Part shown: in pieces, positions 10,106 to 22,308 of the stretch
How the letters are laid out: every line of letters starts with the position of its first letter
Position numbering within the stretch: the first letter of the stretch is position 1
DNA from: a virus
Strand: one strand, 5' to 3'
IMG/VR virus record: IMGVR_UViG_3300020578_006784
Coordinates: 1 to 22,308 of that record
Length of the DNA: 22,308 nucleotides
Made by a program: the position numbers and the translations under genes
Notes under the pieces: model-generated
The model's database searches: none
What the model was told of the DNA's origin: nothing
Seen by the model: only the letters and a program-made list of their open reading frames with translations

Positions 10106-10318
10106 ATGAAGTCGTTCAAACAGTTTGTTTTAGAAATTAACGCGGCAGGTGCAGGTGGCGTTTTTGGCAATGCATCGAGTATGGACCATGGTGGTGCTGT
10201 TGGCAATACCGATTTTTATGCTCCAGGTGATACAAGAGTACCGTCTGCCCTTGGAGCTAAAAAAATAGGCAAAAAGAAGAAAATAGTTGTACAGCGAAGA
10301 TCCTTGTCTAAGTACTAA
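10106..10318 (+). CDS. small late protein with capsid-targeting-like N-terminus (70 aa)
   Basis: A 70-residue protein beginning MKSFKQFVLEINAAG. These first ten residues closely resemble the T4 internal-protein targeting peptide MKTYQEFIAE, which is cut after the Glu by the prohead protease gp21. The middle is Gly/Ala/Asp-rich with no predicted fold. The C-terminus is strongly basic (KKIGKKKKIVVQRR), suited to DNA binding. A small, basic, packaged internal-head protein is a reasonable inference; no homologue is recognised. It follows a late-type promoter, and its TAA directly abuts the GTG of the next gene. Confidence 0.7.
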   Translation: MKSFKQFVLEINAAGAGGVFGNASSMDHGGAVGNTDFYAPGDTRVPSALGAKKIGKKKKIVVQRRSLSKY

Positions 10319-10732
10319 GTGGACTTAGGACATTGGACATTAAATGAAGGTGTTAGCATAACAGAAAACAGCTTTGGATTTATTTATGAGATAGTCAACA
10401 CTGTTACAGGTAAGAAATATATTGGTAAAAAACAATGTAAATCTAAATTAAAAAGAAAGCCATTAAAGGGGAAGAAGAATAAAAGAATAGAAATAAAAGA
10501 GTCAGATTGGAGAGAATACACAAGCTCGTCAGCAGAGTTAAATGAAGACATAAAAAAGTATGGCAAAGATAAATTTGTTTTTAGGATTTTAAAAGAATGC
10601 GGCTCCAAATGGGAGTTAGCATATTTTGAAATATCTGAACAGATTGCAAAGAATGTTTTGATGGGAGATGATTATTATAATGGTATTATAAATGTAAGAA
10701 TAGGACGGCCACCAAAAGGCTTTAAATTATAA
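10319..10732 (+). CDS. GIY-YIG-like endonuclease (SegE-like)
   Basis: A 137-residue protein with the GIY-YIG nuclease layout: GFIYEI (20-25), KKYIGKK (32-38), a basic insert (KLKRKPLKGKKNKR), SDWREYTSSSAEL (62-74), KDKFVFRIL (84-91) and a Glu in AYFEISEQ (101-108) where the catalytic acid is expected. The first motif reads F-I-Y rather than G-I-Y and the second Y-I-G is intact. This resembles the single-domain SegE-type proteins of T4-like phages. Homing activity is not shown; no separate DNA-binding domain is visible. The GTG start at 10319 abuts the preceding stop (TAAGTG). It is the only usual initiation codon ahead of the domain, so the start is plausible but not certain. Confidence 0.72.
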   Translation: MDLGHWTLNEGVSITENSFGFIYEIVNTVTGKKYIGKKQCKSKLKRKPLKGKKNKRIEIKESDWREYTSSSAELNEDIKKYGKDKFVFRILKECGSKWELAYFEISEQIAKNVLMGDDYYNGIINVRIGRPPKGFKL

Positions 10733-10748
10733 AGAAAGCTAGTATAAT
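10721..10748 (+). promoter_or_regulatory. sigma70-like promoter of the 10755 gene
   Basis: TTTAAA (10721-10726), a 16-base spacer and TATAAT (10743-10748) are followed by 6 bases and GTG 10755. The start codon coincides with the predicted +1. Confidence 0.5.
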
Positions 10749-10754
10749 AGCGAG

Positions 10755-11294
10755 GTGAAGTATTTTAGAAACATACCTGAACTTAATATTAAAATACTAG
10801 ACCTCGAACAAGTATTGCTCGAGCAAATTGAACCTGATGTAGAAGATGACAATCATAAGTTTTGTCTAGAGCAAAAACAAAGACTTTTAAAGAAATTTAT
10901 TGTTTACAGAATATGTGATTTTCTGATGAAAGTTTTAGAGCAGCCTAATACAAATGGCTGTAAGTTGTTGTTTTATTTGCCTTTTAACTTTAAGCTCAAC
11001 TTTATCAAAGATCATGCTCTTTACGTGCGCAGTACGTTGGTTCGAATTGCGAAAATTCTTTCGTTGAGTTTATATTCTAACAATATTAACGCATATGATT
11101 TTTGGCGTTTGCTTCAAATGAAAACAGGAGAAGGCAGAGAGGCCCGGGCCCGGATATCGTTTATTTTTAATAGAAAATTAAAAAGACCAAATCTCGATAT
11201 GTTTAATAAGTTTTTGTTAAAGAACGGTATATCTAAGATAGAAGGGGATATAGCCAATAATTACAAGGTAAAATTAGGTTTGTTTATAACATAA
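10755..11294 (+). CDS. hypothetical protein (179 aa)
   Basis: I do not recognise this protein. It is largely helical. Features are a Leu/Glu-rich N-terminal region (about 10-50), a hydrophobic LLFYLPFNFKLNFIKDHALY segment near 74-93, and a basic C-terminal half with EGREARARISFIFNRKLKRP (about 128-147), consistent with nucleic-acid binding. The GTG start at 10755 is chosen because TATAAT lies 6 bases before it and no ATG lies nearby in frame. Unlike its late-type neighbours it has an early (sigma70) promoter and its N-terminus (MKYFRNIPELN) lacks a convincing LxE/IxE cut site. It is therefore probably expressed early and not a virion protein. Confidence 0.65.
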   Translation: MKYFRNIPELNIKILDLEQVLLEQIEPDVEDDNHKFCLEQKQRLLKKFIVYRICDFLMKVLEQPNTNGCKLLFYLPFNFKLNFIKDHALYVRSTLVRIAKILSLSLYSNNINAYDFWRLLQMKTGEGREARARISFIFNRKLKRPNLDMFNKFLLKNGISKIEGDIANNYKVKLGLFIT

Positions 11295-11297
11295 ATA
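11290..11297 (+). promoter_or_regulatory. late-type promoter box (CATAAATA)
   Basis: CATAAATA at 11290-11297 overlaps the stop codon of the preceding gene. T4 late spacing gives +1 near 11303, three bases before ATG 11306. It probably drives the 11306-15246 gene block. Confidence 0.65.
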
Positions 11298-11305
11298 TAT
11301 TGTAT

Positions 11306-11719
11306 ATGAAGTTCTTAGATAGCCTTGCTGAAAAATATAAGGAGTTAGAACTAGGGGCCCCTGATTGGGTTAATGAGGCTGGTACTACACCGCCTTTGCC
11401 AGCAACACCGGCTACTACTCCTGTGGCTGCAACCCCTGCCGCCCCTGCAGTGCCAACAAACCAACCGCAGTCAGTTGTAAATGCATTAATGAAAGCCATG
11501 GATGTGTTGCAAGATGATCCAGAAATACAAAAAGTAAAAACAACAGTTTCACAGAAAGTGACAGATGCAAAAAAGCAAATTACCGATACTGGTGCAAAAG
11601 TTGTTAGTACTATTGACCAGGCATTGCAAAATTTGGGTAAGATAACTTCAAGTACAACAACCGGCGGGGCTACACCTGTGACACCTTCAACTAGCAGCGT
11701 AACTGGGGCAGGAAAATGA
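11306..11719 (+). CDS. Pro/Thr/Ala-rich late protein, paralogous N-terminus A
   Basis: A 137-residue protein starting MKFLDSLAEKYKELE. The N-terminal helix contains SLAE, which fits the T4 prohead-protease cut pattern (L/I)xE. It is followed by a low-complexity linker of P, A, T and V (about 27-55), a helical region (VVNALMKAMDVLQDDPEIQKVK, then about 70 residues rich in K, T and V), and a Gly/Thr/Ser tail. The ATG at 11306 is preferred over the in-frame TTG at 11300 because it places the gene 3 bases after the predicted late +1. It is coupled to the next gene by an ATGA overlap and shares that protein's opening MKFLD. A head-internal or virion role is inference. Confidence 0.65.
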   Translation: MKFLDSLAEKYKELELGAPDWVNEAGTTPPLPATPATTPVAATPAAPAVPTNQPQSVVNALMKAMDVLQDDPEIQKVKTTVSQKVTDAKKQITDTGAKVVSTIDQALQNLGKITSSTTTGGATPVTPSTSSVTGAGK

Positions 11720-12087
11720 AATTTCTAGATATTGTTAGTAATAAGTTAAAAACACTTAACGAACAGGTACCAGGGGAAATGCCACCCATGGCGCCAGCAG
11801 ATCCAAATGCTGCTGCAGCCATGATGGGAGGAGCAGCACCTGCGCCAGCTCCCGCACCAGAGGCTGCTCCTGATCAAGGTCCTACGCCTCTCACAGCCGA
11901 GGGTGAGGTATTCCTAGTAAGACTGCTCAAAAAAGCTTTGTTCATGAATCCAGGTGATCTGGATGAAAAGGCTTTGAAAGATTTGCCTGAAATTAATGAG
12001 ACTAATGCTTCACAAGTGCTCAGCTCAATAGTTGATATTATGAAGAAATATTCTAATACTATTGACGTTGAGACTCAACCTGAGTAA
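11716..12087 (+). CDS. Pro/Ala-rich late protein, paralogous N-terminus B
   Basis: A 123-residue protein starting MKFLDIVSNKLKTLNEQVPG; TLNE fits an (L/I)xE prohead-protease site. A Pro/Ala/Met-rich linker (about 20-55, with runs such as APAPAPAPEAAP) is followed by a compact acidic helical domain (VFLVRLLKKALFMNPGDLDEKALKDLPEINE, then SSIVDIMKKYSNT). It overlaps the preceding gene by ATGA, with the purine-rich GGGGCAGGAAA just before the start. Its organisation (MKFLD helix, P/A linker, helical module) matches that of its neighbour, which suggests an old tandem duplication. Function is unknown; late expression and the N-terminus argue for a virion protein. Confidence 0.65.
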   Translation: MKFLDIVSNKLKTLNEQVPGEMPPMAPADPNAAAAMMGGAAPAPAPAPEAAPDQGPTPLTAEGEVFLVRLLKKALFMNPGDLDEKALKDLPEINETNASQVLSSIVDIMKKYSNTIDVETQPE

Positions 12088-12093
12088 TTCTGT

Positions 12094-13308
12094 GTGGCAT
12101 ACAAAAGCTTAAACAAACTTTATTTAGAAGATGTCTATGGTGCACCTGTACCAGTTCTACCTAGACAGCAAGTAGCAAATACTGCTTCAGTTCAGAATCA
12201 AATTACAGTGACACCATGGCCGGATGATGTTAAAAGAATACCTTTCATACAAAGAGGTGCAAAAGGATCCAAGGAAGGTCAAGGCAATGGCGAAATGCGT
12301 GTTGCAGGGTTGTTTGAAAAACAACAACAAGATGAATCAGATGAAGTATATTTTCGTAGACTAGCGAGTTATACTTCTGGTCAAAACAAAGCATTTGACG
12401 TTTCATTACCTAATAATATTAAATTTGAAGTTAAAGAAATAAAGCCTAAAAAGGACGTGCGTATAGCAAAAACTGGTAGCGAGGCCGAAGGTAAGATTTC
12501 TACAGCTGTAGAAGCTATAATGAAATATTTGTCTGATTACTATAAAACCCTAGATAAAACTAGCCAACAAACACTGGACACCTTTTTGCGTAGAAAAATA
12601 AGACAAAAAGGTGACAGCTTTAATGTTGATGACACCTGGACACTACTAACCTATTGCAACGATGTAAGGAAATATAAACGAAATATGGGTAAACAATTTT
12701 TTTATGGCAACATGAGAACACCTTTAAGAGGTAATAGAAAACTATTGACTGTAATATCTCTGGAAGAACTCGAAAAATATTTAACAGAATTTTGCTTAGG
12801 ATCACAGGAGAATCAAATAACAGCTACACCGGAAGAGAATAAAAGATTAAATGATAATGTTGATAAACTATTCAAATTATTATCAGATCTTTATTTGCCT
12901 TCGGAGCTTGAGCACAGTGACCGTACAGCCAGAGGCAGGGAATTAGAAGGCAGAGCAGAAGATATAGATAGAGAATTAACGGCTTTTAAGTGCTCCATAT
13001 CATCTGGAGAATGTAGAAGTGATGAATGGTTCTGCGCCGCGTGGGGAAGAGTGCTAGATGCTGGTCTTTTTGATAGAATACAGGAAATGCTCATAGGTGA
13101 TAAAAGCGAAGTTATGACGTTATTTCCTGATGAAGTACAGGGGTTATACATAGTTAGTGAAGAGGGGTATGAATATATTCCTAGAGAGCAGCTTAGAAGT
13201 TATATCTACATAACTAGCCTTGCTGGCCAAGGACCCAAAATAGGCCGTATATCTGATAAACCTAATCTTGATGTTGCATCGGAAGATGAAGAAGATGAAG
13301 CTATTTAA
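12094..13308 (+). CDS. hypothetical late protein with a possible PD-(D/E)XK nuclease core
   Basis: A 404-residue protein with GTG start at 12094, six bases after the previous stop. The N-terminus (MAYKSLNKLYLEDVYG) is followed by a low-complexity P/V/Q-rich stretch. Residues about 67-130 carry a pattern like the PD-(D/E)XK core: an acidic residue in GEMRVAGLFE, then FD at 101-102, nine residues, and E112-V-K114 followed by basic residues and a Lys/Gly loop. The rest is helical, with Cys pairs near 299-317 and an acidic tail (EDEEDEA). This nuclease reading is inference from a short motif and I cannot confirm it without profile search. It sits upstream of two nucleotidyltransferase-like genes in the same late block. 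Confidence 0.6.
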   Translation: MAYKSLNKLYLEDVYGAPVPVLPRQQVANTASVQNQITVTPWPDDVKRIPFIQRGAKGSKEGQGNGEMRVAGLFEKQQQDESDEVYFRRLASYTSGQNKAFDVSLPNNIKFEVKEIKPKKDVRIAKTGSEAEGKISTAVEAIMKYLSDYYKTLDKTSQQTLDTFLRRKIRQKGDSFNVDDTWTLLTYCNDVRKYKRNMGKQFFYGNMRTPLRGNRKLLTVISLEELEKYLTEFCLGSQENQITATPEENKRLNDNVDKLFKLLSDLYLPSELEHSDRTARGRELEGRAEDIDRELTAFKCSISSGECRSDEWFCAAWGRVLDAGLFDRIQEMLIGDKSEVMTLFPDEVQGLYIVSEEGYEYIPREQLRSYIYITSLAGQGPKIGRISDKPNLDVASEDEEDEAI

Positions 13309-13921
13309 AGAGTTTGTAGAGAAAAAAGACTACACGGGCATAGGATTATTCCCTGGTGCATTCAAACCACCGCACAGAGGACATTTTGAAACTGTAAAAC
13401 AGGCAGCTGTTGAAAATAAAGAACTTATAATATTGGTATCCAGTGCAGATAGAGACGGTATTACCACTACCGATTCCTTAACAATATGGAATATATACAA
13501 ACCTTATTTACCGAAAAATGTAAGTGTATATTTTGCACAATCATCGCCAGTGACTGTGGTGTATCAAATTGTAGATATATTAAACAATGATGTTTTTACA
13601 CCAACACAACGAGCTCAGGTACCTATTCCTGTTGCAAAAGAAATAGCTAATAAACTCAGCAAAACGACTTCACCATATACTGTAAATCTTTATGCAAGTG
13701 AGGAAGATATGAAAAGATATGATGCATTTTTTAATCCTAAGAGTAAAGGTGTTTATGTGGGTAACAAAGTAAAAGAAATAATTAAAAAAGATGTGGTTAG
13801 GCTTGCATCGGCTACAGATGCAAGAGCAGCGCTTCTCAAGAAACGCTATGAAGACTTCAAGACATTTTTGCCTGATATAACAAAAGAGGACAAATTAAAA
13901 ATATACAACCTGCTAAAATGA
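13295..13921 (+). CDS. HxGH-type nucleotidyltransferase (NMNAT/cytidylyltransferase-like) with capsid-targeting-like N-terminus
   Basis: A 208-residue protein of the HxGH nucleotidyltransferase superfamily. GAFKPPHRGH (21-30) is the nucleotide-binding signature (GxFxPxHxGH), and ASATDAR (171-177) sits where the ISSTxxR motif is found. Such enzymes transfer NMP or CMP to a phosphorylated acceptor, for example in NAD synthesis; the acceptor here is unknown. The opening MKLFKEFVEKKD resembles the T4 capsid-targeting peptide. I start at ATG 13295, 14 bases inside the previous gene, rather than at 13268 or 13286, because that start gives the MKxFxxF N-terminus seen elsewhere. Its TGA overlaps the next gene's ATG, pairing it with a ligase-like protein. 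Confidence 0.8.
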   Translation: MKLFKEFVEKKDYTGIGLFPGAFKPPHRGHFETVKQAAVENKELIILVSSADRDGITTTDSLTIWNIYKPYLPKNVSVYFAQSSPVTVVYQIVDILNNDVFTPTQRAQVPIPVAKEIANKLSKTTSPYTVNLYASEEDMKRYDAFFNPKSKGVYVGNKVKEIIKKDVVRLASATDARAALLKKRYEDFKTFLPDITKEDKLKIYNLLK

Positions 13922-15246
13922 ACACTTTTAAAAATTTTTTGGGTCAAGAGACTGTTTTACTAGAAGATGCAGCTCATCTTAAGACACATCTCTCCCATAT
14001 AGAAGATTTAGCAATAGAAAAAGGCAAAACTGGTTTTCAAGAATTTGCAGATCATATTGATGCAGTTACAAAGAAGTTAAAAGGTTTCGAAACTAATCAA
14101 GAGATGAATGCGAAGATAGATGGTAGCCCTATGATTTTGTTTGGTGAAGACCCTAGACCTCAATTTAAAAAAGCTTTTTTTATTTCGCTTAAAGGTGGAT
14201 TGAGCCAAACAACCCCAAAAATCATGCATACAGATGAAGAAATAGAGCAACTCTATGGTGGGGAGTCAGCTTTGAAAGAAAAGTTAAAAAGCTTATTAAA
14301 ACATTTAAAGCCGGTTTATCAAGGCCCTAAGATATATCAAGGCGACGTTTTATTTTCTATTCCTTCTGATAAAAAAACATTAAAAATAGGTGAAGAGAGC
14401 TTCTTAGCATTTAAACCAAATGTAATTGTGTATGCTGTCCCAATAGACCCAAACAGTGAATTGAGTAATAGAATATCTAAGGCTGCTGTGGGTGTAGTAG
14501 TACATGAATCGTTTAGGGGTGTTTCTGAGAATAAAGACACGTCAATATCACTTCAATCAACTGGCAGAAATGTACAAGATTTAATTGAGAGAAGCAAGCG
14601 CTATAACGTTTTTATTGAAGGGAGTAATTATACCTCAGTGAAGGCTGATATACCAGATCAACAGCTTAAAAAAATACAATCTGATACAGCAAAAGCAAAA
14701 TTAGTAATTTCAGAAATAGAAGATGATTTTAACAATGCATATATTAATAGTCCGGTGCTCTCGTTGCTAAAAATATTTTTAAACAGGCAAGTTGATATAG
14801 CACCAGCGGGCATTTTCGGCGCTGCGTCAAGAGGTGAAGAGTTTTTATATGAAGATTTTATAAGAAAATTTCGTGAGTTTATCTCTGACAGGTATAATAA
14901 GGAAATTGAATTGAAAAAGACCCCGCGGGGCAAAGCTTTAGTTGATAATAGGCTAAAAGAGATATTAAACTTTCTTGAAGCACATAAAGAAAGCCTAACC
15001 AAATTATTAATGGCAACTTATTACATGACTGCTGCAAAATATCATTTATTGAGGTCGCTCACTACCATGGAATCTAAAGTTGGCAGAACATTTATGCAGA
15101 ATTCAGATGGCTCTTTTGTACCTACAAAAGATGAAGGATTTGTGTTGTTTATGGGAACGAACCATGTAAAGTTGGTTGATAGATTAGAATTTACTAAGAT
15201 TAACAGGCTTCGCGGCGGTAAGCAAAAGCAAGAACTTACCGCGTAG
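13918..15246 (+). CDS. ligase-like nucleotidyltransferase (KxDG superfamily) with capsid-targeting-like N-terminus
   Basis: A 442-residue protein resembling the covalent nucleotidyltransferase superfamily (DNA/RNA ligases, capping enzymes). KIDGSP (66-71) fits motif I with the lysine that would carry AMP/GMP. IYQGDVLF (139-146) sits like motif III. FKPNVIVYAVPID (165-177) sits like IIIa. Near the C-terminus EGFVL (406-410) and HVKLVDR (416-422) match motifs IV and V. A helical insertion of about 200 residues separates IIIa from IV, so this is not a standard ligase. The first residues, MNTFKNFLGQETVLLE, again look like a capsid-targeting peptide. It is coupled (ATGA) to the HxGH enzyme. It overlaps the convergent 15236 gene by 11 bases. 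Activity is inferred; an inactive binding protein is possible. Confidence 0.75.
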   Translation: MNTFKNFLGQETVLLEDAAHLKTHLSHIEDLAIEKGKTGFQEFADHIDAVTKKLKGFETNQEMNAKIDGSPMILFGEDPRPQFKKAFFISLKGGLSQTTPKIMHTDEEIEQLYGGESALKEKLKSLLKHLKPVYQGPKIYQGDVLFSIPSDKKTLKIGEESFLAFKPNVIVYAVPIDPNSELSNRISKAAVGVVVHESFRGVSENKDTSISLQSTGRNVQDLIERSKRYNVFIEGSNYTSVKADIPDQQLKKIQSDTAKAKLVISEIEDDFNNAYINSPVLSLLKIFLNRQVDIAPAGIFGAASRGEEFLYEDFIRKFREFISDRYNKEIELKKTPRGKALVDNRLKEILNFLEAHKESLTKLLMATYYMTAAKYHLLRSLTTMESKVGRTFMQNSDGSFVPTKDEGFVLFMGTNHVKLVDRLEFTKINRLRGGKQKQELTA

Positions 15247-15736
15247 CTTCCAAGTTGAAAATAACTTGTCTTAAAACATTCTCTACCACTTCTTTGCTTT
15301 CACCGTGCAGCATTTCTTTTACTTTACCCACCACATTATTGCTATGGTCAGAGAGCTCAGAATCGAACTCACCTTCTTTTTTAAACTTGTCATACTCGAG
15401 ATAATTTTTTACACCATCAAGATAGCTGGCGGCGACAGTAATTTTACTAAACACCCAAGGCTCAATATCTTGACAGTCTTTTAAAATATTGTATAGTTCT
15501 TTTGCTGCTTTGTGTATTTTGTATAGTTCGCTTTTAGCCATATAAGTCTCTGTTTCTGTTTCTTCGGTGTTGTGGTCAGGTGTTAATGCGGTTAATTCTT
15601 CTTGATCTTTAACAACTATTTGTGTAGGGTTATTAGGGGTGGGCACTGTGTCCCTGCCTTCACCGGGGGTAGCACCGCCTGCGACGTGTTGTGTATATTC
15701 TTCAGATAAATTGACTATGTCGCGTTTCTTGTTCAT
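15236..15736 (-). CDS. hypothetical late protein (166 aa) with conserved helical module
   Basis: The N-terminal half (about 1-70) is low-complexity, acidic and Thr/Pro-rich. The C-terminal half holds a helical module that starts MAKSELYKIHKAAKELYNIL and continues through EPWVFSKITVAASYLDGVKNYLEYDKF. Modules of this type (helix, PxWVxxKI, Y-rich helix) recur in marine T4-like phage proteins in my memory, with no assigned function. ATG 15736 is preferred to ATG 15742 because the late box AATAAATA (15750-15743) predicts +1 at 15737. NLSE near residue 9-12 fits a prohead-protease site, so this too may be a virion component; that is inference. Its 3' end overlaps the ligase-like gene. Confidence 0.65.
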   Translation of the reverse strand: MNKKRDIVNLSEEYTQHVAGGATPGEGRDTVPTPNNPTQIVVKDQEELTALTPDHNTEETETETYMAKSELYKIHKAAKELYNILKDCQDIEPWVFSKITVAASYLDGVKNYLEYDKFKKEGEFDSELSDHSNNVVGKVKEMLHGESKEVVENVLRQVIFNLEATR

Positions 15737-15742
15737 TTTCAT

Positions 15743-15750
15743 TATTTATT
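15743..15750 (-). promoter_or_regulatory. late-type promoter box (AATAAATA), minus strand
   Basis: Minus-strand AATAAATA spans 15750-15743, predicting +1 at 15737, one base before ATG 15736. It lies back-to-back with a plus-strand TATAAATA, with only two bases between the boxes. Confidence 0.5.
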
Positions 15751-15752
15751 CT

Positions 15753-15760
15753 TATAAATA
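15753..15760 (+). promoter_or_regulatory. late-type promoter (perfect TATAAATA)
   Basis: An exact T4 late consensus TATAAATA at 15753-15760 is followed by five bases and ATG 15766. With the T4 register (-13 to -6) the +1 is the A of the ATG. Confidence 0.8.
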
Positions 15761-15765
15761 GTAAT

Positions 15766-16170
15766 ATGCATAACTTTAGTCGTATTTTTATCGAGCAAAT
15801 TCTTGGGTTGTTCGAAGGTATTACTATTCAACATGTTGGAACAGTTAAGGCTAAAGTAGATACTGGTAATAGCGCACACAATGTACTGCATGCGGTAGAT
15901 TTAAAAGAAAAAGATGGAAAAGTAACTTTTAAAACTGTAAATGAAAAGATCTTAACTCTACCTGTTACGGATCATATTACAATTCATATTGGTAGCGGAA
16001 ACAATGAAGAAAGACCTGTTGTTAAATTAGATTGTAGCATTGGCACAGAACAATTCAACCAAGTGCCTTTTAGCCTGGGAGATAGAAGTCAGAACGATAC
16101 ACCTGTGTTACTAGGCGAAGGATTCATTAGGCAAAACGGCGGTGTAGTCAATGTGAATATAAACCGCTAA
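15766..16170 (+). CDS. retropepsin-like aspartic protease domain protein (RimK-associated Zn-protease-like)
   Basis: A 134-residue protein with the one-domain retropepsin pattern. VKAKVDTGNSAHNVLHA (residues 27-43) carries the catalytic-type DTG at 32-34. It continues with a strand-rich middle (PVVKLDCSIG near 84-93, resembling the flap/inner strands) and ends with PVLLGEGFIRQNGG (113-126), the hydrophobic-Gly segment that closes this fold. This matches the family often annotated as 'ATP-dependent zinc protease', related to proteins found beside RimK. Activity would need a dimer. The N-terminus MHNFSRIFIEQILGLFE has two possible (L/I)xE-like sites, so it may be packaged or matured in the prohead. 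A perfect late promoter drives it as a leaderless mRNA. Confidence 0.8.
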   Translation: MHNFSRIFIEQILGLFEGITIQHVGTVKAKVDTGNSAHNVLHAVDLKEKDGKVTFKTVNEKILTLPVTDHITIHIGSGNNEERPVVKLDCSIGTEQFNQVPFSLGDRSQNDTPVLLGEGFIRQNGGVVNVNINR

Positions 16171-16459
16171 AGCCAATAGATTTTAAAATGTGATTTAAAT
16201 TATAAGCGTGCACAGCTTTTACCACGCATACTGTAGGTGCATACACAAAGTCAGTATCTACACGCATTCCTACTTCCTCACCAGGTGATAAGATATCATC
16301 AACATAATCCATAGCACCTCTGCTTTTTAAAAAAGCATAAAATGTGTCTTTAGGTTCTCCTTCTATAATTACATTATAACGACAATACTCGTGAGCGTAG
16401 AGTGTCAGATCCCTAAAACAAGAAATGCTGGTTGGTGGGTTTACCAGATCCCCGCGTAT
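16148..16459 (-). CDS. small protein gene without a standard start codon (about 103 aa)
   Basis: On the minus strand an open frame runs from an in-frame TAG near 16474 to TGA at 16150-16148. It reads like real protein: residues FRDLTLYAHEYCRYNVII, then AFLKSRGAMDYVDDILSPGEE, then FVYAPTVCVVKAVHAYNL. No ATG, GTG or TTG precedes the well-formed part; the first internal ATG would give only 54 residues. At 16471-16466 there is a TGTAAT followed by 6 bases and ATA at 16459-16457, in frame. That is exactly where leaderless starts lie elsewhere here. An AUA start, a mutated start codon, a sequencing error or an inactive gene are all possible. It lies downstream of folE. Function unknown. Confidence 0.5.
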   Translation of the reverse strand: MRGDLVNPPTSISCFRDLTLYAHEYCRYNVIIEGEPKDTFYAFLKSRGAMDYVDDILSPGEEVGMRVDTDFVYAPTVCVVKAVHAYNLNHILKSIGFSGLYSH

Positions 16460-16465
16460 AATTAG

Positions 16466-16471
16466 ATTACA
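16466..16471 (-). promoter_or_regulatory. possible -10 element before the start-less 16148-16459 gene
   Basis: Minus-strand TGTAAT (16471-16466) lies 6 bases before the in-frame ATA. No good -35 is visible upstream. The support is mostly the spacing shared with other genes. Confidence 0.3.
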
Positions 16472-16484
16472 CTAATTATTTAGT

Positions 16485-17138
16485 CTAGATAAGTTTTCGG
16501 TTTTGAGCAAATTCAATAAACTTATAAAATTCATTTCTTGAATTATCTTTATCATCAAGAAATGCTCCAGACATTCTAGCAGTACGCATAGTAGAATCAT
16601 GACGAATACCGCGATTAGAACAGCAGGTGTGGGCGGCCTCAATCATAACTGCAACACCTTTATTCTTTTCGCAAACCTCATCAATATATTTGTGAATTTG
16701 CATTGTAAGGTTTTCTTGAACTTGAGGACGACGAGAAAACCAATCTACAATACGATTTAACTTACTAAGACCTATAACCTTGCCATCTTTAGCAGGAATA
16801 TAAGCTACATGCGCAAACCCCATGAAAGGGGCATGGTGATGCGAGCATAGTGAGGTTACTTTAATGTTGGTTTGTGAAACAATACCGTCATACTTATCTA
16901 CATTATCAAAAGCGGTTACCTTAGGTGGCTCGCTATAACACCCCCAAGCAAAATCCTCAACAAATGCCTTAGCAACCCTATGAGGTGTATTAGAACTATT
17001 TGGATCATTACGCCAATCATACCCTAAAGCGTCCATATAAGCTTCATATGCCTTGGCAGCTTTTTCTACGATTTGTGCTCTTTCTTCGGGTGTATGTGGA
17101 TGATTATGGTTTGCAAATTGAAGTTTCTTTTTAAACAT
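16485..17138 (-). CDS. folE: GTP cyclohydrolase I (FolE)
   Basis: Converts GTP to 7,8-dihydroneopterin triphosphate, the first step toward preQ0 and folates; 217 residues, typical for FolE. SLCSHHHAPFMG (96-107) carries zinc ligands C98 and H101. The second zinc Cys is in EAAHTCCSNRGI (about C172). TPHRVAKAF (51-59), GLSKLNRIVDWFSRRPQVQENL (123-144) and the final MRTARMSGAF complete the active site. With QueD and QueE nearby, use in 7-deazaguanine synthesis is more likely than folate synthesis; that is inference. It has its own promoter, TTGATT/TATAAT with 7 bases to the ATG. All expected catalytic residues are present. Confidence 0.95.
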   Translation of the reverse strand: MFKKKLQFANHNHPHTPEERAQIVEKAAKAYEAYMDALGYDWRNDPNSSNTPHRVAKAFVEDFAWGCYSEPPKVTAFDNVDKYDGIVSQTNIKVTSLCSHHHAPFMGFAHVAYIPAKDGKVIGLSKLNRIVDWFSRRPQVQENLTMQIHKYIDEVCEKNKGVAVMIEAAHTCCSNRGIRHDSTMRTARMSGAFLDDKDNSRNEFYKFIEFAQNRKLI

Positions 17139-17145
17139 ATAACTT

Positions 17146-17172
17146 ATTATATTACTATTCTTTATTAATCAA
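17146..17172 (-). promoter_or_regulatory. sigma70-like promoter of folE
   Basis: Minus-strand TTGATT (17172-17167), a 15-base spacer and TATAAT (17151-17146), then 7 bases to ATG 17138. The spacer is slightly short; reading the -35 one base upstream gives 16. Confidence 0.55.
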
Positions 17173-17173
17173 G

Positions 17174-17181
17174 ATTAAATA
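17174..17181 (+). promoter_or_regulatory. late-type promoter box (ATTAAATA)
   Basis: ATTAAATA at 17174-17181 matches six of eight positions of TATAAATA. It predicts +1 at 17187, one base before ATG 17188. It overlaps the divergent folE promoter region. Confidence 0.45.
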
Positions 17182-17187
17182 ATCAGT

Positions 17188-18537
17188 ATGCGTATAGACA
17201 CATTAATAGAGAGCACACTTAGAAACTCCCAACTAAAAAGAGTGCGTATCAAAGTCGATCCGGCTCAACTACTTATGCAAAATTTTCACATGGTTGATAG
17301 TTACGAGGGCTATATTCTTGAAGAAGATGGAGAAGATATCAAGGTGTTTATGTTGAATCTGCCGGATGAATTTGATCCAATTCAAACAGTGAATAGACGG
17401 CATGTTTCTGCTTGCAAAGGTAATAGCCAGATAACATCTAAAGTTCTTGCACAATTAGAGAAGGAGGGGGTATTACCAGATAATCCCACATATCAGAAAA
17501 TTAAAAACACAACCAGTTCAGATTTTATAGATCAATTCTTGAGAGAGCTAGGATATGATGATAAAAAATTAATAGAATTCTACAAGTCCATGTCTTTGGA
17601 GCCTGTTACTGAAGGTATAGCCAGTAAATTAAAAGATATTGGTAGTGTTGTTAAGGACATTGACCCTTTGCAAGCGGTCCAAAAAACAACAAGTGGGCTT
17701 GCAAAAGTACCAGGTTTAATAGTTGGCAAAGATAATATTATAGGTAGAGTAGCAAAATTTATTGACCCAACTGGCTCAGGCTTCATGAAAGTAGATTCTT
17801 TATTAGCTGGTGCTAGTGAGAAATATGAAAAGAGCAGAGAAAGTAATTTAAGAAAAGGCACTCCCATTTTTTTCGGAAGACTACCTGGGTTTGAAAATGC
17901 GGGACAATCGGATGATATAGAGTATCAAATATCTGGTATGGTAGGTCAAGAAGAGAAGAAGAAAATACCGTCATCTATTAAAATAGAAAATGTATACCCT
18001 CTAAGTGTAAAAAACAGATTTGAGGTACATCTAGATTACCCAACAATATACAATCCACAAAAAACTGGTATGGTATATTTAATACACAAAACTACCGGTC
18101 GAATTGCAGAGGAATACCCAGTTAAAATACAGGACAATAAAAACCGTATTGTAGCTGTATATGACAAGGAAAGACACGATAAAATTAAGAAGTCAAAGCC
18201 TAGTGCTGGAGAAAAGCTTATTACTGATATTGATACTGATAGTGCACGTCAAGATATAATAGCAAACCTAGTTGTAAACAAGTTATCTGCTTTTATGAAC
18301 GCAATTAAAGGAGTTAGTTGGCAACCACGCGATGCCGAGGCTATTATTTCAAAAAGAGATAATATAGTAGGAAATATAACCAGTATAGGCGAGACAACAG
18401 GTCTTGCCGCTCTTGAGAGGGCCATAGAAGAATTAATGAACGATAAAACTGTGACAGCTACTACCAATCCAACAGCGGCCATCAACAGGTTACTTGAAAA
18501 GTTAAAGAACAGCAAATTGCTAGATAAAGATAAATAA
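17188..18537 (+). CDS. hypothetical late protein (449 aa)
   Basis: Not recognised. The protein starts MRIDTLIESTLRNSQ; LIE at 6-8 fits the (L/I)xE prohead-protease pattern. An N-terminal domain of about 130 residues (VRIKVDPAQLL, GYILEEDGEDIKVFMLNLP, helices to about 135) is followed by a Gly/Lys-rich helical stretch (about 140-220). A beta-rich region comes next (IKIENVYPLSVKNRFEVHLDYP, then GMVYLIHKTTGRI, about 265-330), and then a helical C-terminus. No membrane helix or catalytic signature is evident. A late-type promoter box precedes it with +1 one base before the ATG, and folE diverges on the other side. A virion or internal-head component is the favoured inference. Confidence 0.65.
   Translation: MRIDTLIESTLRNSQLKRVRIKVDPAQLLMQNFHMVDSYEGYILEEDGEDIKVFMLNLPDEFDPIQTVNRRHVSACKGNSQITSKVLAQLEKEGVLPDNPTYQKIKNTTSSDFIDQFLRELGYDDKKLIEFYKSMSLEPVTEGIASKLKDIGSVVKDIDPLQAVQKTTSGLAKVPGLIVGKDNIIGRVAKFIDPTGSGFMKVDSLLAGASEKYEKSRESNLRKGTPIFFGRLPGFENAGQSDDIEYQISGMVGQEEKKKIPSSIKIENVYPLSVKNRFEVHLDYPTIYNPQKTGMVYLIHKTTGRIAEEYPVKIQDNKNRIVAVYDKERHDKIKKSKPSAGEKLITDIDTDSARQDIIANLVVNKLSAFMNAIKGVSWQPRDAEAIISKRDNIVGNITSIGETTGLAALERAIEELMNDKTVTATTNPTAAINRLLEKLKNSKLLDKDK
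18529..18536 (+). promoter_or_regulatory. late-type promoter box (GATAAATA)
   Basis: GATAAATA at 18529-18536 lies within the last codons of the preceding gene. It predicts +1 at 18542, one base before ATG 18543. Confidence 0.55.
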
Positions 18538-18542
18538 CATAT

Positions 18543-18698
18543 ATGCCGGCAAAATCTGAAAAACAAAAAGAAAGTTTTGATGATAGGGTAAATGCAATTT
18601 TAGGTAAGTATTTCATTACAGAAGAAGAACATTGTAAATATGCACAAGAAGGTTGTGATTGTGATAACTGTGCAGAGTGCAAAGTAAATCAAGAATAA
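18543..18698 (+). CDS. Cys-rich microprotein (51 aa)
   Basis: A short reading frame, ATG 18543 to TAA 18698. It starts MPAKSEKQKESFDDRVNAIL, a charged helix, and ends with a cysteine cluster: C31, C38, C40, C43 and C46 in HCKYAQEGCDCDNCAECK. The spacing C-x6-C-x-C-x2-C-x2-C resembles a small zinc-binding knuckle. The late box GATAAATA places +1 one base before the ATG, which supports it as a true gene despite its size. It sits 5 bases after the 17188 gene and just before the queD promoter. No family is recognised; a small metal-binding regulator or virion accessory are guesses only. Confidence 0.6.
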   Translation: MPAKSEKQKESFDDRVNAILGKYFITEEEHCKYAQEGCDCDNCAECKVNQE

Positions 18699-18701
18699 CC
18701 A

Positions 18702-18729
18702 TTGATAATACTATTTCTCATACTATAAT
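18702..18729 (+). promoter_or_regulatory. sigma70-like promoter of queD
   Basis: TTGATA (18702-18707), a 16-base spacer and TATAAT (18724-18729) are followed by 6 bases and ATG 18736, so the message would be leaderless. Confidence 0.7.
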
Positions 18730-18735
18730 AGTTGT

Positions 18736-19368
18736 ATGAGTTTTCAAAGCACCAAAGTAATTGAATTAGGAAGCTGCGCATTTAGACAATGGAAGGCTGA
18801 TCACAGTCACTGCAAGTTTATCCATGGCTACAGGTTAGTGGCTAAGTTTTGGTTTGCTGCTTCTGAACTAGATAATAAAAATTGGGTTGTAGATTTTGGT
18901 GGTTTAAAGCAGTTGAAAGAGGCTCTTGAGAAGCAGTTTGATCATACATTCTGTGTTGCTGGTGATGATCCTTTGCTGTCCTATTTTAAGCAATTGCATG
19001 ATCTTGGTGCCGTGGATTTACGAGTGATGCAGAATGGAGTGGGTATTGAGCGTACTGCTGAATGGTGTTACAACACTGCAGATAAAATTATTAAAGAAAT
19101 CACCAATGGCAGATGCTGTGTTGAAAAGGTAGAGGTGTGGGAGCACGAGAAGAACTCTGCTATATACAGCGTAAAGAAAGCTGGGGACTGCAAGCCAAAA
19201 ACACAAGAGAGTGTTGCAACTGTAGTGGCAGCTCCTGCTGAGCCTATTCAACAAGTTGTTAATACTGTGAATGCAGGTATTAATGTGGAACCAAAACCTG
19301 CACAGGTGGGTAATAATGTAACTAGTGGTTGGGGTAATCCCTTTGGTGGGACGTCTTGGGGAAATTAA
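18736..19368 (+). CDS. queD: QueD-like 6-carboxytetrahydropterin synthase with altered metal site and C-terminal tail
   Basis: Member of the PTPS/QueD family, which makes 6-carboxy-tetrahydropterin from dihydroneopterin triphosphate on the way to preQ0. The core spans about residues 5-150: HSHCKFIHGY (23-32) with the family Cys at 26, WVVDFGGLK (50-58), FDHTF (68-72) with the His of the catalytic pair, and VEVWEHE (132-138). Two differences stand out. The usual HGH reads HGY, and the usual early AAH motif reads CAFR, so zinc binding must use other His (H23, H25, H30) or be changed. A tail of about 60 residues rich in A, P, V and T, ending in GWGNPFGGTSWGN, is extra relative to bacterial QueD. 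Its 3' end overlaps phoH by 47 bases. Confidence 0.82.
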   Translation: MSFQSTKVIELGSCAFRQWKADHSHCKFIHGYRLVAKFWFAASELDNKNWVVDFGGLKQLKEALEKQFDHTFCVAGDDPLLSYFKQLHDLGAVDLRVMQNGVGIERTAEWCYNTADKIIKEITNGRCCVEKVEVWEHEKNSAIYSVKKAGDCKPKTQESVATVVAAPAEPIQQVVNTVNAGINVEPKPAQVGNNVTSGWGNPFGGTSWGN

Positions 19369-20080
19369 TAGTCTTAAGAACATTAACAATATATCTTAAT
19401 AATTTGCTACGAGTAATGTCGTCTTCAGTGAAGTGGAAGCATTCTATACCGTTGTTCTTAGATTCTGGTGTATCAAAACCGGTCATCATGCATTCAAAAT
19501 CTTTTTTGTGAATATCTGACTGTCTAGAGTCTCCTATAAAAAATAACTTACAATTTTTTCCAACACGTGTTAAGATTGTTATCAACTCGCTTCTATCAAA
19601 ATTTTGTGCTTCGTCTGCAATAACCACACAATTTGTAAATGTGGCCCCTCTTAAGAAGTTAACAGGTATGCTTCTAATATATTCGTTTTCAAACAATACA
19701 TTTGTTACTTGCTTACCAACAAGCTCATCACACTTCTCAATAAGGGGTAGGCACCATGGTTTAAATTTGTCATCTACTTCTCCAGGTAAGCTACCAAGCT
19801 TTCTGTTGGCAGACTCTACAATACTTCTAACGTAAAGAACTTCATCAATACGTTTCTCTTTTAATAACGTTAAAGCTATGAATACAGATAGATATGTTTT
19901 AGAACTTCCTGCAGGGCCATCTGCAAAAACTATGTTTGTACTATCGTCCAAGACTTTATCAACAAAGGCTTTATGGTGATCGTTTAAATGAAATTTTTGA
20001 TCTATTCTGTAATTTCTTAAAAGATCTGTTTTAATTAATTCTTTGCTGTTATTCTTTGGGTTCTTTTTGAAAGAACTCAT
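19322..20080 (-). CDS. phoH: PhoH-like ATPase
   Basis: PhoH-family P-loop protein, 252 residues, a frequent auxiliary gene in marine phages whose exact role (RNA metabolism, phosphate stress) is unsettled. Walker A is GPAGSSKT (55-62). The core follows with EVLYVRSIVESANRKLGSLPGE in two parts (80-101), Walker B VVIADEAQNF (152-161), and GDSRQSD (183-189). The N-terminus is Lys/Asn-rich. The start at 20080 is backed by a late-type box that puts +1 one base upstream, so phoH appears to be expressed late, unlike its divergent neighbour queE. The 3' end overlaps queD by 47 bases on the opposite strand. Confidence 0.92.
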   Translation of the reverse strand: MSSFKKNPKNNSKELIKTDLLRNYRIDQKFHLNDHHKAFVDKVLDDSTNIVFADGPAGSSKTYLSVFIALTLLKEKRIDEVLYVRSIVESANRKLGSLPGEVDDKFKPWCLPLIEKCDELVGKQVTNVLFENEYIRSIPVNFLRGATFTNCVVIADEAQNFDRSELITILTRVGKNCKLFFIGDSRQSDIHKKDFECMMTGFDTPESKNNGIECFHFTEDDITRSKLLRYIVNVLKTINFPKTSHQRDYPNH

Positions 20081-20086
20081 CTACAT

Positions 20087-20094
20087 TATTTATG
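20087..20094 (-). promoter_or_regulatory. late-type promoter box (CATAAATA) of phoH
   Basis: Minus-strand CATAAATA (20094-20087) predicts +1 at 20081, one base before ATG 20080. It directly abuts the -35 of the divergent queE promoter. Confidence 0.6.
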
Positions 20095-20123
20095 TTGATT
20101 TTGCTCCATATTGTATATATAAT
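20095..20123 (+). promoter_or_regulatory. sigma70-like promoter of queE
   Basis: TTGATT (20095-20100), a 17-base spacer and a perfect TATAAT (20118-20123) are followed by 6 bases and ATG 20130. This is the best sigma70-like promoter in the window. Confidence 0.75.
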
Positions 20124-20129
20124 TTGAAT

Positions 20130-20870
20130 ATGTCTGATACTATTTTTCTAAGTGATGATAAGATATTCTATACCATAGAAGGGGAAGGAGAACATGTAGG
20201 TAAGCCTTCTGTATTCATGAGAGTATCCATGTGTAACCTAACTTGCAAAGGATTTGCATCAGCAGACTCTCCCCATGGGTGTGATAGTTTTATCAGCTGG
20301 TCTGTAAAAAACAGATTTACTGTTAACGAAATACTAGATTTGCTCGACAATGAAGGTCATACAAAGCATTTGCGTGAAAATGCTATATGGAAGATAACGG
20401 GCGGCGAGCCTCTTATTCAGCAAAAAATGCTTCTTGAATTGGTGAGGGCGTTTGCCAAGCGTAATGGATTTATACCTAAGATTGATTTTGAAACAAATGC
20501 TACAATACAGCCTCTAGATGAATGGTCAGTCTATCAAGTTACATACACCACATCTCCTAAGATGACCAATAATGGTGATCCAGAAGAAAAAAGATACAAG
20601 CCTGCAGTACTCAGATGGCACGTTAGTGCCGGTTCCGGATTCAAATTTGTAATTAGCGAGGAAAAAGACTTGGATGAAATATATGAAAAGTATATCAATC
20701 ATCCAGATGTGCTAGTACCAAAGCACAGGGTATGGCTAATGCCATGTTGCGGTAGCAGAAATGAACATGTTGAAAAAGCTGCTATGGTTGCTGAGTTGGC
20801 CAAAAAACATGACATGAAGTTTAGTCCAAGACTGCAATTAGTAATTTGGGACAAGGCTCTCAAAGTGTAG
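20130..20870 (+). CDS. queE: 7-carboxy-7-deazaguanine synthase (QueE), radical SAM
   Basis: Radical SAM enzyme that contracts 6-carboxy-tetrahydropterin to 7-carboxy-7-deazaguanine, 246 residues. The N-terminal YTIEGEGEHVGKPSVFMRVS (14-33) is typical of QueE. The cluster cysteines are C35, C39 and C51 (C-x3-C-x11-C), an expanded loop compared with the usual C-x3-C-x2-C. KITGGEPLIQQ (88-98) is the SAM-binding GGEP motif. The C-terminal half contains VTYTTSPKMTNNG and FKFVISEEKDLDE, as in the family. I start at 20130, not at the upstream in-frame ATG 20043, because the promoter -10 ends 6 bases before 20130 and the extra 29 residues would overlap phoH. Confidence 0.93.
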   Translation: MSDTIFLSDDKIFYTIEGEGEHVGKPSVFMRVSMCNLTCKGFASADSPHGCDSFISWSVKNRFTVNEILDLLDNEGHTKHLRENAIWKITGGEPLIQQKMLLELVRAFAKRNGFIPKIDFETNATIQPLDEWSVYQVTYTTSPKMTNNGDPEEKRYKPAVLRWHVSAGSGFKFVISEEKDLDEIYEKYINHPDVLVPKHRVWLMPCCGSRNEHVEKAAMVAELAKKHDMKFSPRLQLVIWDKALKV

Positions 20871-20890
20871 TTGCTTTTTGTATAACGAAC

Positions 20891-20898
20891 CATAAATT
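20891..20898 (+). promoter_or_regulatory. late-type promoter box (CATAAATT)
   Basis: CATAAATT at 20891-20898 differs from the common box at the last base. T4 spacing puts +1 exactly on ATG 20904. Confidence 0.5.
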
Positions 20899-20903
20899 AG
20901 CTT

Positions 20904-21101
20904 ATGAATGTAAACATCGATGTAAAGATACAAGGTGACAATGGTGGTCTAGAATCGTGGAGAGTAATTCTTAACCAAGATGATTTAACCTCTATTATCC
21001 GTGAAAAGGGAATCAACGCTGGTAATGAAGCTCTAGAACACTTTGTAGAGAAGTTTGTTACACAATTCAAGGAAAAGCTAGGCTCTGTTATTAATAGATA
21101 A
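20904..21101 (+). CDS. small acidic/amphipathic hypothetical protein (65 aa)
   Basis: A 65-residue protein starting MNVNIDVKIQGDNGG. A short beta hairpin-like N-terminus (IDVKIQ, then WRVILNQDDL) is followed by a long amphipathic helix (GNEALEHFVEKFVTQFKEKLGSVI). No family is recognised. It has its own late-type box with +1 on the ATG, and it ends just before the hairpin that covers the next gene's start. The codon content and the promoter support a real gene. The frame on the opposite strand over the same bases is treated as a shadow. Confidence 0.6.
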   Translation: MNVNIDVKIQGDNGGLESWRVILNQDDLTSIIREKGINAGNEALEHFVEKFVTQFKEKLGSVINR

Positions 21102-21123
21102 TCCACATAAATAATATGTGGAT
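21101..21123 (+). repeat. perfect inverted repeat (8-base arms, 7-base loop) over a late promoter and a start codon
   Basis: The arms ATCCACAT (21101-21108) and ATGTGGAT (21116-21123) pair perfectly around the loop AAATAAT. The right arm contains the GTG start (21118) of the VanY-type gene; the left arm and loop contain the late box. In a read-through RNA the start codon would be buried in the stem. Confidence 0.75.
21106..21113 (+). promoter_or_regulatory. late-type promoter box (CATAAATA) of the VanY-type gene
   Basis: CATAAATA at 21106-21113 predicts +1 at about 21118-21119, on the GTG start and beyond the left arm of the inverted repeat. Confidence 0.65.
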
Positions 21124-21894
21124 TCTGATAATAAACAACTGCTAAGCCGTTACGATCTTATATCTGAAGCATTTACAGGTGCTAACGGCCGTTTAAATAC
21201 TTCTCAACTCACAGAAGTTCAACCAAACAAATTCTTAAGACCTGATGTAGCTCAACGGTTTCAAGCCATGGCTCAAGCGGCTCGAGCTGATGGTGTTAAC
21301 TTGCAAATTACTGATGCATATCGTAGTTATGAGCAACAAGTTGATGTGGCTCGTCGCAAAGGATTGTACAGTCAAGGTGGTCTAGCCGCTTATCCAGGTA
21401 CTTCTAACCATGGTTGGGGAACTGCAGTAGATTTAAATGTAAGAGGTAACCCGGGTGCTTTTGAATGGTTAAAGCAAAATGCAAGCCAGTATGGCTTTAC
21501 AAATATTCCAAGAGAACCCTGGCACTGGGAAGTTAAGTCAAAAGGTCAGGTACCTCCTGTACGTGTTTCACCTCAGCAACAAGCTGCACAGAGTCAATTA
21601 CCACCTCAAACACAACAGCAACAATTTCAGTTGCCTCCACAGCAATTCCGACCACCAACTCCTTTAATGCCAATTCCACAATACCAATCTAACCAGGCTC
21701 AATACACTTATCCACAGTTTATACCAAATTATTATGGCGGTTATGGGCAACAGAATATGGCCATGAATCCTTTGGGATTAATTACAGGCATGTTGGGTGG
21801 CATTGGAAATATGAGCGGTGGTGCTTTAGGACCAATAGCTGGCTTTGGCAATTTATTAGGCGGTTTATTAAATAACATAGGTAACATTGGCTAA
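21118..21894 (+). CDS. VanY-type D,D-carboxypeptidase/endopeptidase domain protein (M15/LAS peptidase)
   Basis: A 258-residue protein with an N-terminal LAS peptidase domain that cuts peptidoglycan cross-links. ITDAYRSYEQQ (64-74), GTSNHGWGTAVDLN (94-107) with zinc ligands H98 and D105, and REPWHWEVK (132-140) with catalytic E133 and zinc ligand H136 give a complete active site. Residues about 150-190 are Gln/Pro-rich and the C-terminal 50 are Gly/Met/Asn-rich and hydrophobic, unlike a simple soluble endolysin. The N-terminal SRYDLISEAFTG contains ISE, a possible prohead-protease cut site. The start is GTG 21118; an ATG two bases upstream is out of frame and stops early. It could act as lysin or as a virion-associated peptidase. 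Confidence 0.85.
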   Translation: MDSDNKQLLSRYDLISEAFTGANGRLNTSQLTEVQPNKFLRPDVAQRFQAMAQAARADGVNLQITDAYRSYEQQVDVARRKGLYSQGGLAAYPGTSNHGWGTAVDLNVRGNPGAFEWLKQNASQYGFTNIPREPWHWEVKSKGQVPPVRVSPQQQAAQSQLPPQTQQQQFQLPPQQFRPPTPLMPIPQYQSNQAQYTYPQFIPNYYGGYGQQNMAMNPLGLITGMLGGIGNMSGGALGPIAGFGNLLGGLLNNIGNIG

Positions 21895-21895
21895 T

Positions 21896-22308
21896 ATGAA
21901 CGATTTTAAAAATTTAAATTTACTCTATGAATCTTCTGTTAATAGTAAATTACTAACAGAAGATGAGAAATACATTGAACAAATAATTTTAGAAGTAGCA
22001 GATGAAGACTTGGATGCTGCTGCTGATGAAAAAGCTGAAGAGGGAATGTTTTCCAAAGGTATAAAACAAGGCATTATAAATTTAGCATGGTATCTGGCCA
22101 AAGTAGTTGATCCTTCAGGTGTATTGAGTTGGGGAGATTTAGGAAAAGCAATCTCAGGGTGGATGGCAAAACCATCAGTCTCAAATGCACTGTGGGTTGT
22201 ATTTGGAGTATACTGTGTAATACCATCGTTTGTGCCCACCGCCGCAGCTGCAGCAGCAGCTGGTGCAGCAGGGGGTCTAGCTGCTCCGGTCACAGGTGTT
22301 GCCGGTGG
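21896..22308 (+). CDS. hypothetical protein with hydrophobic Ala-rich segment, C-terminus outside the window
   Basis: The ATG at 21896 lies one base after the VanY gene's stop codon, and the frame stays open to the window end (137 residues). It starts MNDFKNLNLLYESSVNSKLL; LYE resembles the (L/I)xE site, and the MxxFKN opening is like the ligase-like protein's MNTFKNF. Acidic helices follow (residues 23-50), then a hydrophobic region (about 95-110, ALWVVFGVYCVIPSF) and an Ala/Gly-rich stretch that may be membrane-active. It is cotranscribed with the peptidase gene, so a shared role in lysis or in the virion is possible. The minus-strand frame over the Ala-rich part is a low-complexity shadow. 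Confidence 0.65.
   Translation, partial: MNDFKNLNLLYESSVNSKLLTEDEKYIEQIILEVADEDLDAAADEKAEEGMFSKGIKQGIINLAWYLAKVVDPSGVLSWGDLGKAISGWMAKPSVSNALWVVFGVYCVIPSFVPTAAAAAAAGAAGGLAAPVTGVAG

Follow-up and report, generated by a model that had tools for sequence, protein, structure and literature searches.

Capsid-targeting-like N-terminal tags on late, mostly enzyme-like proteins of an aquatic T4-like phage

The locus and its late genes

We focus here on a set of N-terminal tags, resembling the capsid-targeting sequence of the T4 internal proteins (IPs), in a 22,308-base contig fragment of a T4-like aquatic phage (IMG/VR record IMGVR_UViG_3300020578_006784; the whole stretch analysed is called the window below). 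The window encodes DNA polymerase, gp46/47-like SbcCD proteins, the late sigma factor gp55, UvsW, UvsY, PhoH and queuosine-type enzymes, together with the proteins of Table 1, which are named by the first coordinate of their genes. At the DNA level, megablast of the window against phage records gave zero matches, and a scan of viral contigs with the window NMNAT returned a single near-identical record and nothing further. A search with the DUF6267 protein led to nine related contigs plus one near-identical 13-kilobase (kb) record; G003 (105 kb), G004 (127 kb) and G008 (64 kb) are large related contigs with a gene order as in the window. Pfam and PHROGs gave a function for none of 10106, 10755, 11306, 11716, 12094 and 17188. 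An earlier reading of the sequence alone (the sequence-only reading) had singled out a series of protein starts; every one that it quoted was found in the sequence at the position it gave, those of 11306, 13295 and 21896 being internal ATGs within slightly longer open reading frames.

Table 1. Features of the window discussed in the text. An arrow marks the predicted cut; tag types A to C are defined in the following section.
Position	Strand	Feature	N-terminus or motif	Details
10106..10318	+	IP-like protein, 70 residues	MKSFKQFVLE↓INAAGAGGVFG...	gp23-N-arm-like segment, basic C-terminus (KKIGKKKKIVVQRR); ATAAATA box 40 nucleotides upstream
11306..11719	+	Pro/Ala-rich protein, 137 residues	MKFLDSLAEKYKEL, type C-like	orthologs MKFLEKLKEHYQTL, MKFLDNLAKQYQAY; ATAAATA box 16 nucleotides upstream
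11716..12087	+	Protein, 123 residues	MKFLDIVSNKLKTLNE↓Q, type C	orthologs MKFL(D/E/N)xxxxKxxELNEQ; start overlaps preceding stop
12094..13308	+	Protein, 404 residues	MAYKSLNKLYLEDVYG	M(A/D/Y)YKSLxxxYxE conserved in 5/6 clade members
13295..13921	+	NMNAT-like nucleotidyltransferase	MKLFKEFV	PF01467, 7.5e-5, over cut-off; domain starts at residue 16-18
13918..15246	+	DUF6267 protein	MNTFKNFLGQETVLLE, 22-residue tag	PF19782, 6.7e-60; untagged homologs begin at residue ~23
15236..15742	-	Protein, 168 residues	type-B-like start (NLSEEY)	late box; orthologs DLVQLSEAYENMIVNE, EVLNITEAYKKIVINE; absent from the sequence-only reading
15754..15760	+	Late promoter box	TATAAATA at 15753-15760	13 nucleotides before ATG 15766
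15766..16170	+	Retropepsin-like 'Zn_protease' domain protein	MHNFSRIFIE↓Q	PF05618, 5.5e-9, over cut-off
17188..18537	+	Protein, 449 residues	MRIDTLIE↓ST	LIE/IIE conserved in orthologs; no untagged homolog for comparison; weak
21118..21894	+	M15-type peptidase	MDSDNKQLLSRYDLISEAF, type B	late box 12 nucleotides upstream; homologous G003 domain has type A tag MISFKKFVKEAY
21896..22306	+	Larger protein truncated by contig end	MNDFKNLNLLYE↓SS	F4/L7; same-place neighbours in relatives start MKTFKQYVANEYKPLNE, MVTFEQYNSSTISE

Judged by the ATAAATA boxes ahead of their start codons, the tagged genes are expressed late. Boxes precede 10106, 11306, 15766 and 21118, with a geometry as at the gp20, gp21 and gp18-type genes of relatives, and 11716-13918 and 21896 sit downstream in the same blocks as boxed genes. 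The earlier placement of all these proteins behind late-type promoters or in late blocks stands for these genes; 17188 has no ATAAATA box before it. Counted over the whole window, such boxes show no excess (9 found vs 13 expected); it is their placement before start codons that stands out. Since two minus-strand genes (15236-15742 and PhoH) also carry a late box, strand does not equate with early or late; with late boxes on both strands and the G003 structural genes on the DNA polymerase strand, strand was dropped as a proxy. We also observed ATAAATA 12-16 nucleotides ahead of many start codons (window 15753-15766 among others; L013-L029), those of gp18-, gp20- and gp21-like genes included. 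On such box spacing, T4 promoter geometry puts the transcription start at or beside the ATG; if this geometry applies, late mRNAs would be leaderless. Few Shine-Dalgarno-like sites were scored.

Tag shapes, their enrichment and their cargo

In T4 IPIII, most of the targeting information resides at positions 4 and 7, and that for cleavage at 8 and 10 (PMC9026906). From these mutational data we derived a test rule, an aromatic residue ([FY]) at position 4 and Phe at position 7. When the N-termini were searched with this F4/F7 rule, as the sequence-only reading had proposed for its motif, 3 of the 28 called window proteins matched (10106, 13295 and 13918), against a mean of 0.17 when the residues of these N-termini were shuffled; the counts in relatives were 4/107 in G003 (shuffle mean 0.53), 4/83 in G008 (0.46) and 2/149 in G004 (0.71). 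There are zero matches among the minus-strand replication proteins of the window, and zero among replication, tail or baseplate genes in the window and in the cyanophage S-CREM2. Across the neighbourhoods of two gene families the rule matches 111 of 844 proteins vs 0.65 in shuffles; most of these belong to the two families used as queries, and around a dozen to others. A looser motif (aromatic or Leu, with Glu anywhere in the next five residues) was dropped, as in S-CREM2 it gave 22 matches vs 12 in shuffles and no virion bias.

The likeness to the T4 signal that had been proposed for the whole series therefore has to be divided. It is upheld by the rule for 10106, 13295 and 13918, and for 15766 through orthologs only (MVTFKQFFYEQ, MVSFKQFFYEQ, MRSFKQFFYEQ, MRRFGKLFIEQ, MKLFKTFVNEQ), 15766 itself having F4 but I7. 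The rule is not matched by 11306, 11716, 17188 and 21118 themselves: 11306 and 11716 have a second shape, MKFL[DE]xx...LxE, kept in relatives (MKFLEIINKKLAEINEQ, MKFLELIEKKYSELNEQ), and the looser (L/I)xE sites noted early in 17188 and 21118 are singly indistinguishable from chance. The start of 21896 is looser than the T4 signal. We refer to the F..F shape as type A, to the second shape as type C and to a third, M[DN]xDxxxI(F/A/S)ExY....E, as type B; types B and C, with their regular expressions, were drawn up post hoc from the data, and shuffle values for them are thus not blind tests. The N-terminus of 12094 is a possible variant tag, and the start of 17188 resembles that of T4 gp24, MAKINELLRE↓ST. 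Small and with a basic tail, 10106 is by its sequence the most IP-like protein of the window, and its orthologs start MKSFKQYVIE, MRTFKQFVYNE, KTFKTFFYE and MKTFKDFVKE.

Conservation of the tag can be followed in the cytidylyltransferase/NMNAT family, to which 13295 is assigned by its (H/T)xGH signature (GLFPGAFKPPHRGH) and matches to NMNAT chains in PDB; its orthologs start MKTFRQFLTES, MKTFRQFLIES and MKPFKIFLEQ. In 77 of 80 T4-like viral contigs the family protein starts M..F..F(I/L)xE when a register shift of one residue is permitted, and the other three are near variants. Among 56 distinct N-termini, Ala follows the Glu 51 times, Ser 4 times and Thr once, at a position left unconstrained by the search, and the residue two before Glu is limited to Ile, Leu and Phe; these tag ends fit the gp21 (L/I)xE↓A rule. 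The linker after the tag is unconserved, with 30-128 residues from the start to the catalytic motif, and synonymous codon variation at the invariant Phe and Glu positions argues for selection at the protein level.

The DUF6267 family occurs both with and without a tag. Among 45 N-termini examined, 11 are untagged (MAK, then NTHLEHLED) and 17 have the F..F tag, and the remainder include another LxE-ending tag ahead of the domain (MKLYEIKRQTPEFLLVES, MKFLEISKPLVTQLLTES), in the shape of 11306 and 11716. AlphaFold2 models 13918 with a disordered tag (predicted local distance difference test score, pLDDT, below 50 over residues 1-26) ahead of a well-predicted enzyme (mean 84). The protein has the motifs KxDG, QGD, EGxV and KxVDR in this order, and K66xD68G69, E406G407xV409 and K418xxDR are nearly fixed in 36 homologs; DNA/RNA ligases top the Foldseek list of the model, though without significance (best E 0.04, nothing below E=0.001). 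By its motifs the protein may be a ligase-like KxDG nucleotidyltransferase. Tag shapes seem, furthermore, to have been exchanged on one kind of enzyme, since alignable M15-type peptidase domains (29-37% identical) carry the F..F tag in G003 and type B in both G008 and the window.

In 15766, the DTG-type motif KVDTGN is conserved; the AlphaFold2 model of this protein was unusable (pLDDT 36). In four distant relatives (L046, L047, L050 and L051) a Zn_protease domain of its type is joined to a cytidylyltransferase domain in one protein, starting MSKSVRDFLNED in L046 and L047. The type B shape is shared by unrelated proteins (G004 62201, 88920 and 122940; G008 17794, 43373 and 45619; G003 32617), most of which follow late boxes. 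Tagged adenylate kinase and HAD phosphatase genes lie near DUF6267 genes (L178 3718-4296; L208 1917-2522), and MKTFKHFYFEA and MQSFKQFITEQ are tag types occurring in these families. Elsewhere in the window, 16485-20870 encodes GTP cyclohydrolase, QueD and QueE, possibly a 7-deazaguanine DNA-modification pathway; a QueC-like protein was spotted by eye in G003 at 31202-31945.

Prohead protease, capsid arm and cyanophage virions

The sequence-only reading had suggested looking for a gp21-type protease gene. Profile searches find the gp21 prohead protease (PF03420) in G003 and G004 (1.1e-36 and 9.9e-36) and not in the 22-kb window, as expected for a fragment. The gp21 stretches GELNHP and SSR, which we take to be the catalytic His and Ser regions, are conserved between T4 and these relatives. 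The T4 record gives ipIII as MKTYQEFIAE↓A and ipI as MKTFKEFTSTTTPVSTITE↓A; because ipI is so built, a cut site up to residue 19 can be tolerated, and the 13918 tag MNTFKNFLGQETVLLE has the same layout. Candidate (L/I)xE sites lie within about 20 residues in 11306 (LAE9), 11716 (LNE16), 13918 (LLE16) and 21896 (LYE12), and sites with a relaxed P3 residue in 10106 (VLE10) and 15766 (FIE10), so far as such sites go making cleavage likely for most of the tagged proteins; the site in 13295 is poor.

The cut in the major capsid protein gp23 is known to fall at FLTE↓AEI in T4, a position at which cyanophages have LLTE↓APT and ILTE↓AAP, and the scaffold proteins gp22 and gp67 likewise have (L/I)xE sites. 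Past its predicted cut, 10106 resembles the gp23 N-arm of its own clade (FVLE↓INAAGAGGVFG..DFYAPGDTRVP vs CVNE↓ANVAGGTSSVFGG..DWYASGDARLP), with E=8e-4 in a two-sequence comparison and 3e-4 for G004 gp23 among clade proteins, and the predicted cut site aligns with CVNE↓AN of the clade gp23. By eye, a stretch of the S-CREM2 virion protein gp160 (GATGFTGAAAPEGP) also resembles the gp23 of that phage (GADGFTGAAAPGGP).

Purified virions of the cyanophages S-CREM2, S-SZBM1 and S-SCSM1 are reported to contain enzymes (PMC10665884, PMC9146016, PMC9602691). We compared all annotated S-CREM2 N-termini, 52 from virion proteins detected by mass spectrometry and 167 from other proteins. The F4/F7 rule is matched by 4/52 of the former vs 1/167 of the latter (Fisher p=0.012), the lone other match being an open reading frame of 26 residues. 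The virion matches are the S-adenosylmethionine (SAM) hydrolase (MKDFDSFLEE), the APH-like kinase (MKRFDAFLTEE), the cytidylyltransferase (MKNFSSFLTEA) and gp136 (MQTFSMFFSED), of which the first three are exactly the 'regulatory' virion proteins in Table 3 of PMC10665884. Near misses among the virion proteins are gp13 (MKDLHSFLTEQ) and Cas9, with LRFASFMAEAA at residues 17-27. In other cyanophages, the S-CRM01 kinase, in virions per PMC10665884, starts MISFDQFLSE, and the S-SZBM1 cytidylyltransferase, in virions per PMC9146016, starts MRFRQFIIEA. The Cas9-like protein is gp12 of S-CREM2 (L053, 7704-10313, minus strand), virion-detected and with its tag-like stretch in the first 30 residues; S-CRM01 g128 has a comparable stretch, LSLDSFIKEAA.

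Probable packaging, its alternatives and its meaning

The presence of gp21 in relatives, the virion bias in S-CREM2, the 77/80 cytidylyltransferases and the DUF6267 proteins with and without a tag bear out a T4-type capsid-targeting signal, and for four families or more they support the interpretation first drawn from the sequence. For 10106 and the NMNAT-like, DUF6267 and retropepsin-like families we regard it as very likely that the tag works as a capsid-targeting sequence of the T4 type and that its bearers are packaged; for 11306, 11716 and 21896 the same is favoured with less assurance, and for 17188 and 21118 it is possible, if somewhat doubtful. The second tag shape probably, though less certainly, serves the same route. 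We infer for the window phage, from T4 as regards injection, a sequence of core binding, cleavage, packaging and injection together with the enzyme roles. At least four unrelated proteins with a T4-type tag would be made late; the F4/F7 face of the tag would bind the prohead core; the phage's gp21 would cut most tags after (L/I/V/F)xE; and the proteins would remain alongside the DNA inside the head and enter the host at the next infection, where injected enzymes would act ahead of phage gene expression. As the same tag sits on enzymes detected in marine cyanophage virions, such phages probably bring ready-made enzymes into the cell along with their DNA.

Several points weigh against this account. 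The window phage is known by sequence alone, the virion data come from other phages, and gp21 is missing from the window, itself a fragment. Orthologs are not independent, and significance therefore depends on how many families are involved (four to seven). Furthermore, 13295 and its G008 ortholog have no good (L/I)xE site after the tag, which makes cleavage there doubtful; in T4 IPIII, targeting can persist despite blocked processing (PMC9026906). Virion proteins without a tag exist (S-SZBM1_139, DUF680), and the S-CREM2 p value is moderate by itself, its authors not excluding carry-over of abundant enzymes.

That the motif is chance, or a by-product of A/T-rich codons or of late-gene N-terminal composition, seems exceedingly unlikely. 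The genome is indeed AT-rich, MK-rich starts are common and the looser sites of 17188 and 21118 lie within chance, but composition-keeping shuffles give 0.17 where 3 are found, and 0.65 for the 111/844 of the neighbourhoods, and the F, F and E positions are fixed while the linker is free and the codons vary synonymously. The tags could instead bind the neck, tail or baseplate or serve scaffold assembly only, making their bearers virion parts and not injected cargo. Detection in cyanophage virions cannot separate head from tail, and gp22 and gp67 share the (L/I)xE site; we nevertheless consider this unlikely, given that the same positions direct T4 IPs into the head core (PMC9026906), that the cargo domains are enzymes acting on small molecules or host macromolecules, and that tail and baseplate proteins of S-CREM2 have no rule match. 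It is likewise very unlikely that these are ordinary intracellular enzymes whose N-termini are kept for another reason, such as interaction with the phage assembly site, and which reach cyanophage virions as contamination. Carry-over into the preparation is named as a possibility by the authors of PMC10665884 and PMC9602691; virion detection, however, is far commoner among motif bearers than among proteins lacking the motif, and the shape (I/L)xE↓A, the rule by which gp21 cuts, recurs at the cut position of gp23 as FLTE↓A, LLTE↓A and ILTE↓A.

A packaged set of tagged proteins has its closest parallels in T4. IPI, IPII and IPIII are likewise expressed late, have an aromatic residue 4, F7 and an (L/I)xE site at 10-19 (in the window a candidate site), join one tag to unrelated cargo and go with gp21 (here in relatives), and many T-even ip genes were discovered through this tag (PMC12373910). 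They differ in that the T4 proteins are small and inhibit type IV restriction enzymes (Ip1-3, PMC12373910), whereas most of the window cargo resembles enzymes (NMNAT, ligase-like DUF6267, retropepsin-like) and the canonical tag has other shapes beside it. T4 Alt is likewise a head-packaged enzyme with an N-terminal region cut by gp21, and is injected; it is an ADP-ribosyltransferase, of which none was found in the window. Also comparable are the ejection-protein propeptides of phiKZ and SPN3US, packaged and matured after Glu by a prohead protease, with other tags and distant proteases, and the packaged Dar proteins of P1, also with other tags. The cyanophage virion enzymes (NMNAT/cytidylyltransferase, APH-like kinase, SAM hydrolase) have the same tag, and Cas9 an internal variant of it; published accounts leave them unexplained or as possible contamination, those consulted here describe no targeting tag, and the literature we searched holds no paper linking the tag to virion enzymes of cyanophages or other aquatic T4-like phages. 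The T4 targeting mechanism and packaged T4 enzymes are thus known; the members, the aquatic-phage enzyme cargo and the apparent tag exchange appear, as far as checked, to be undescribed.

Tentatively, aquatic T4-like phages may preload an exchangeable enzyme kit (NAD-salvage and ligase-like enzymes, retropepsin, kinases, SAM hydrolase, even Cas9) through the interchangeable tags MKxFxxF...LxE, MKFL[DE]I...LxE and M[DN]xDxxxIxExY, with one small tagged protein copying the N-arm of the major capsid protein. Cyanophage virion proteomes hold enzymes that their authors could not tell from contamination, and the shared T4-like tag supplies a mechanism for their presence. The tag would also serve as a sequence-based predictor of injected proteins for a phage group among the most abundant in water. 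If this is true, NAD, nucleotide or protein metabolism would be altered ahead of any phage gene expression.

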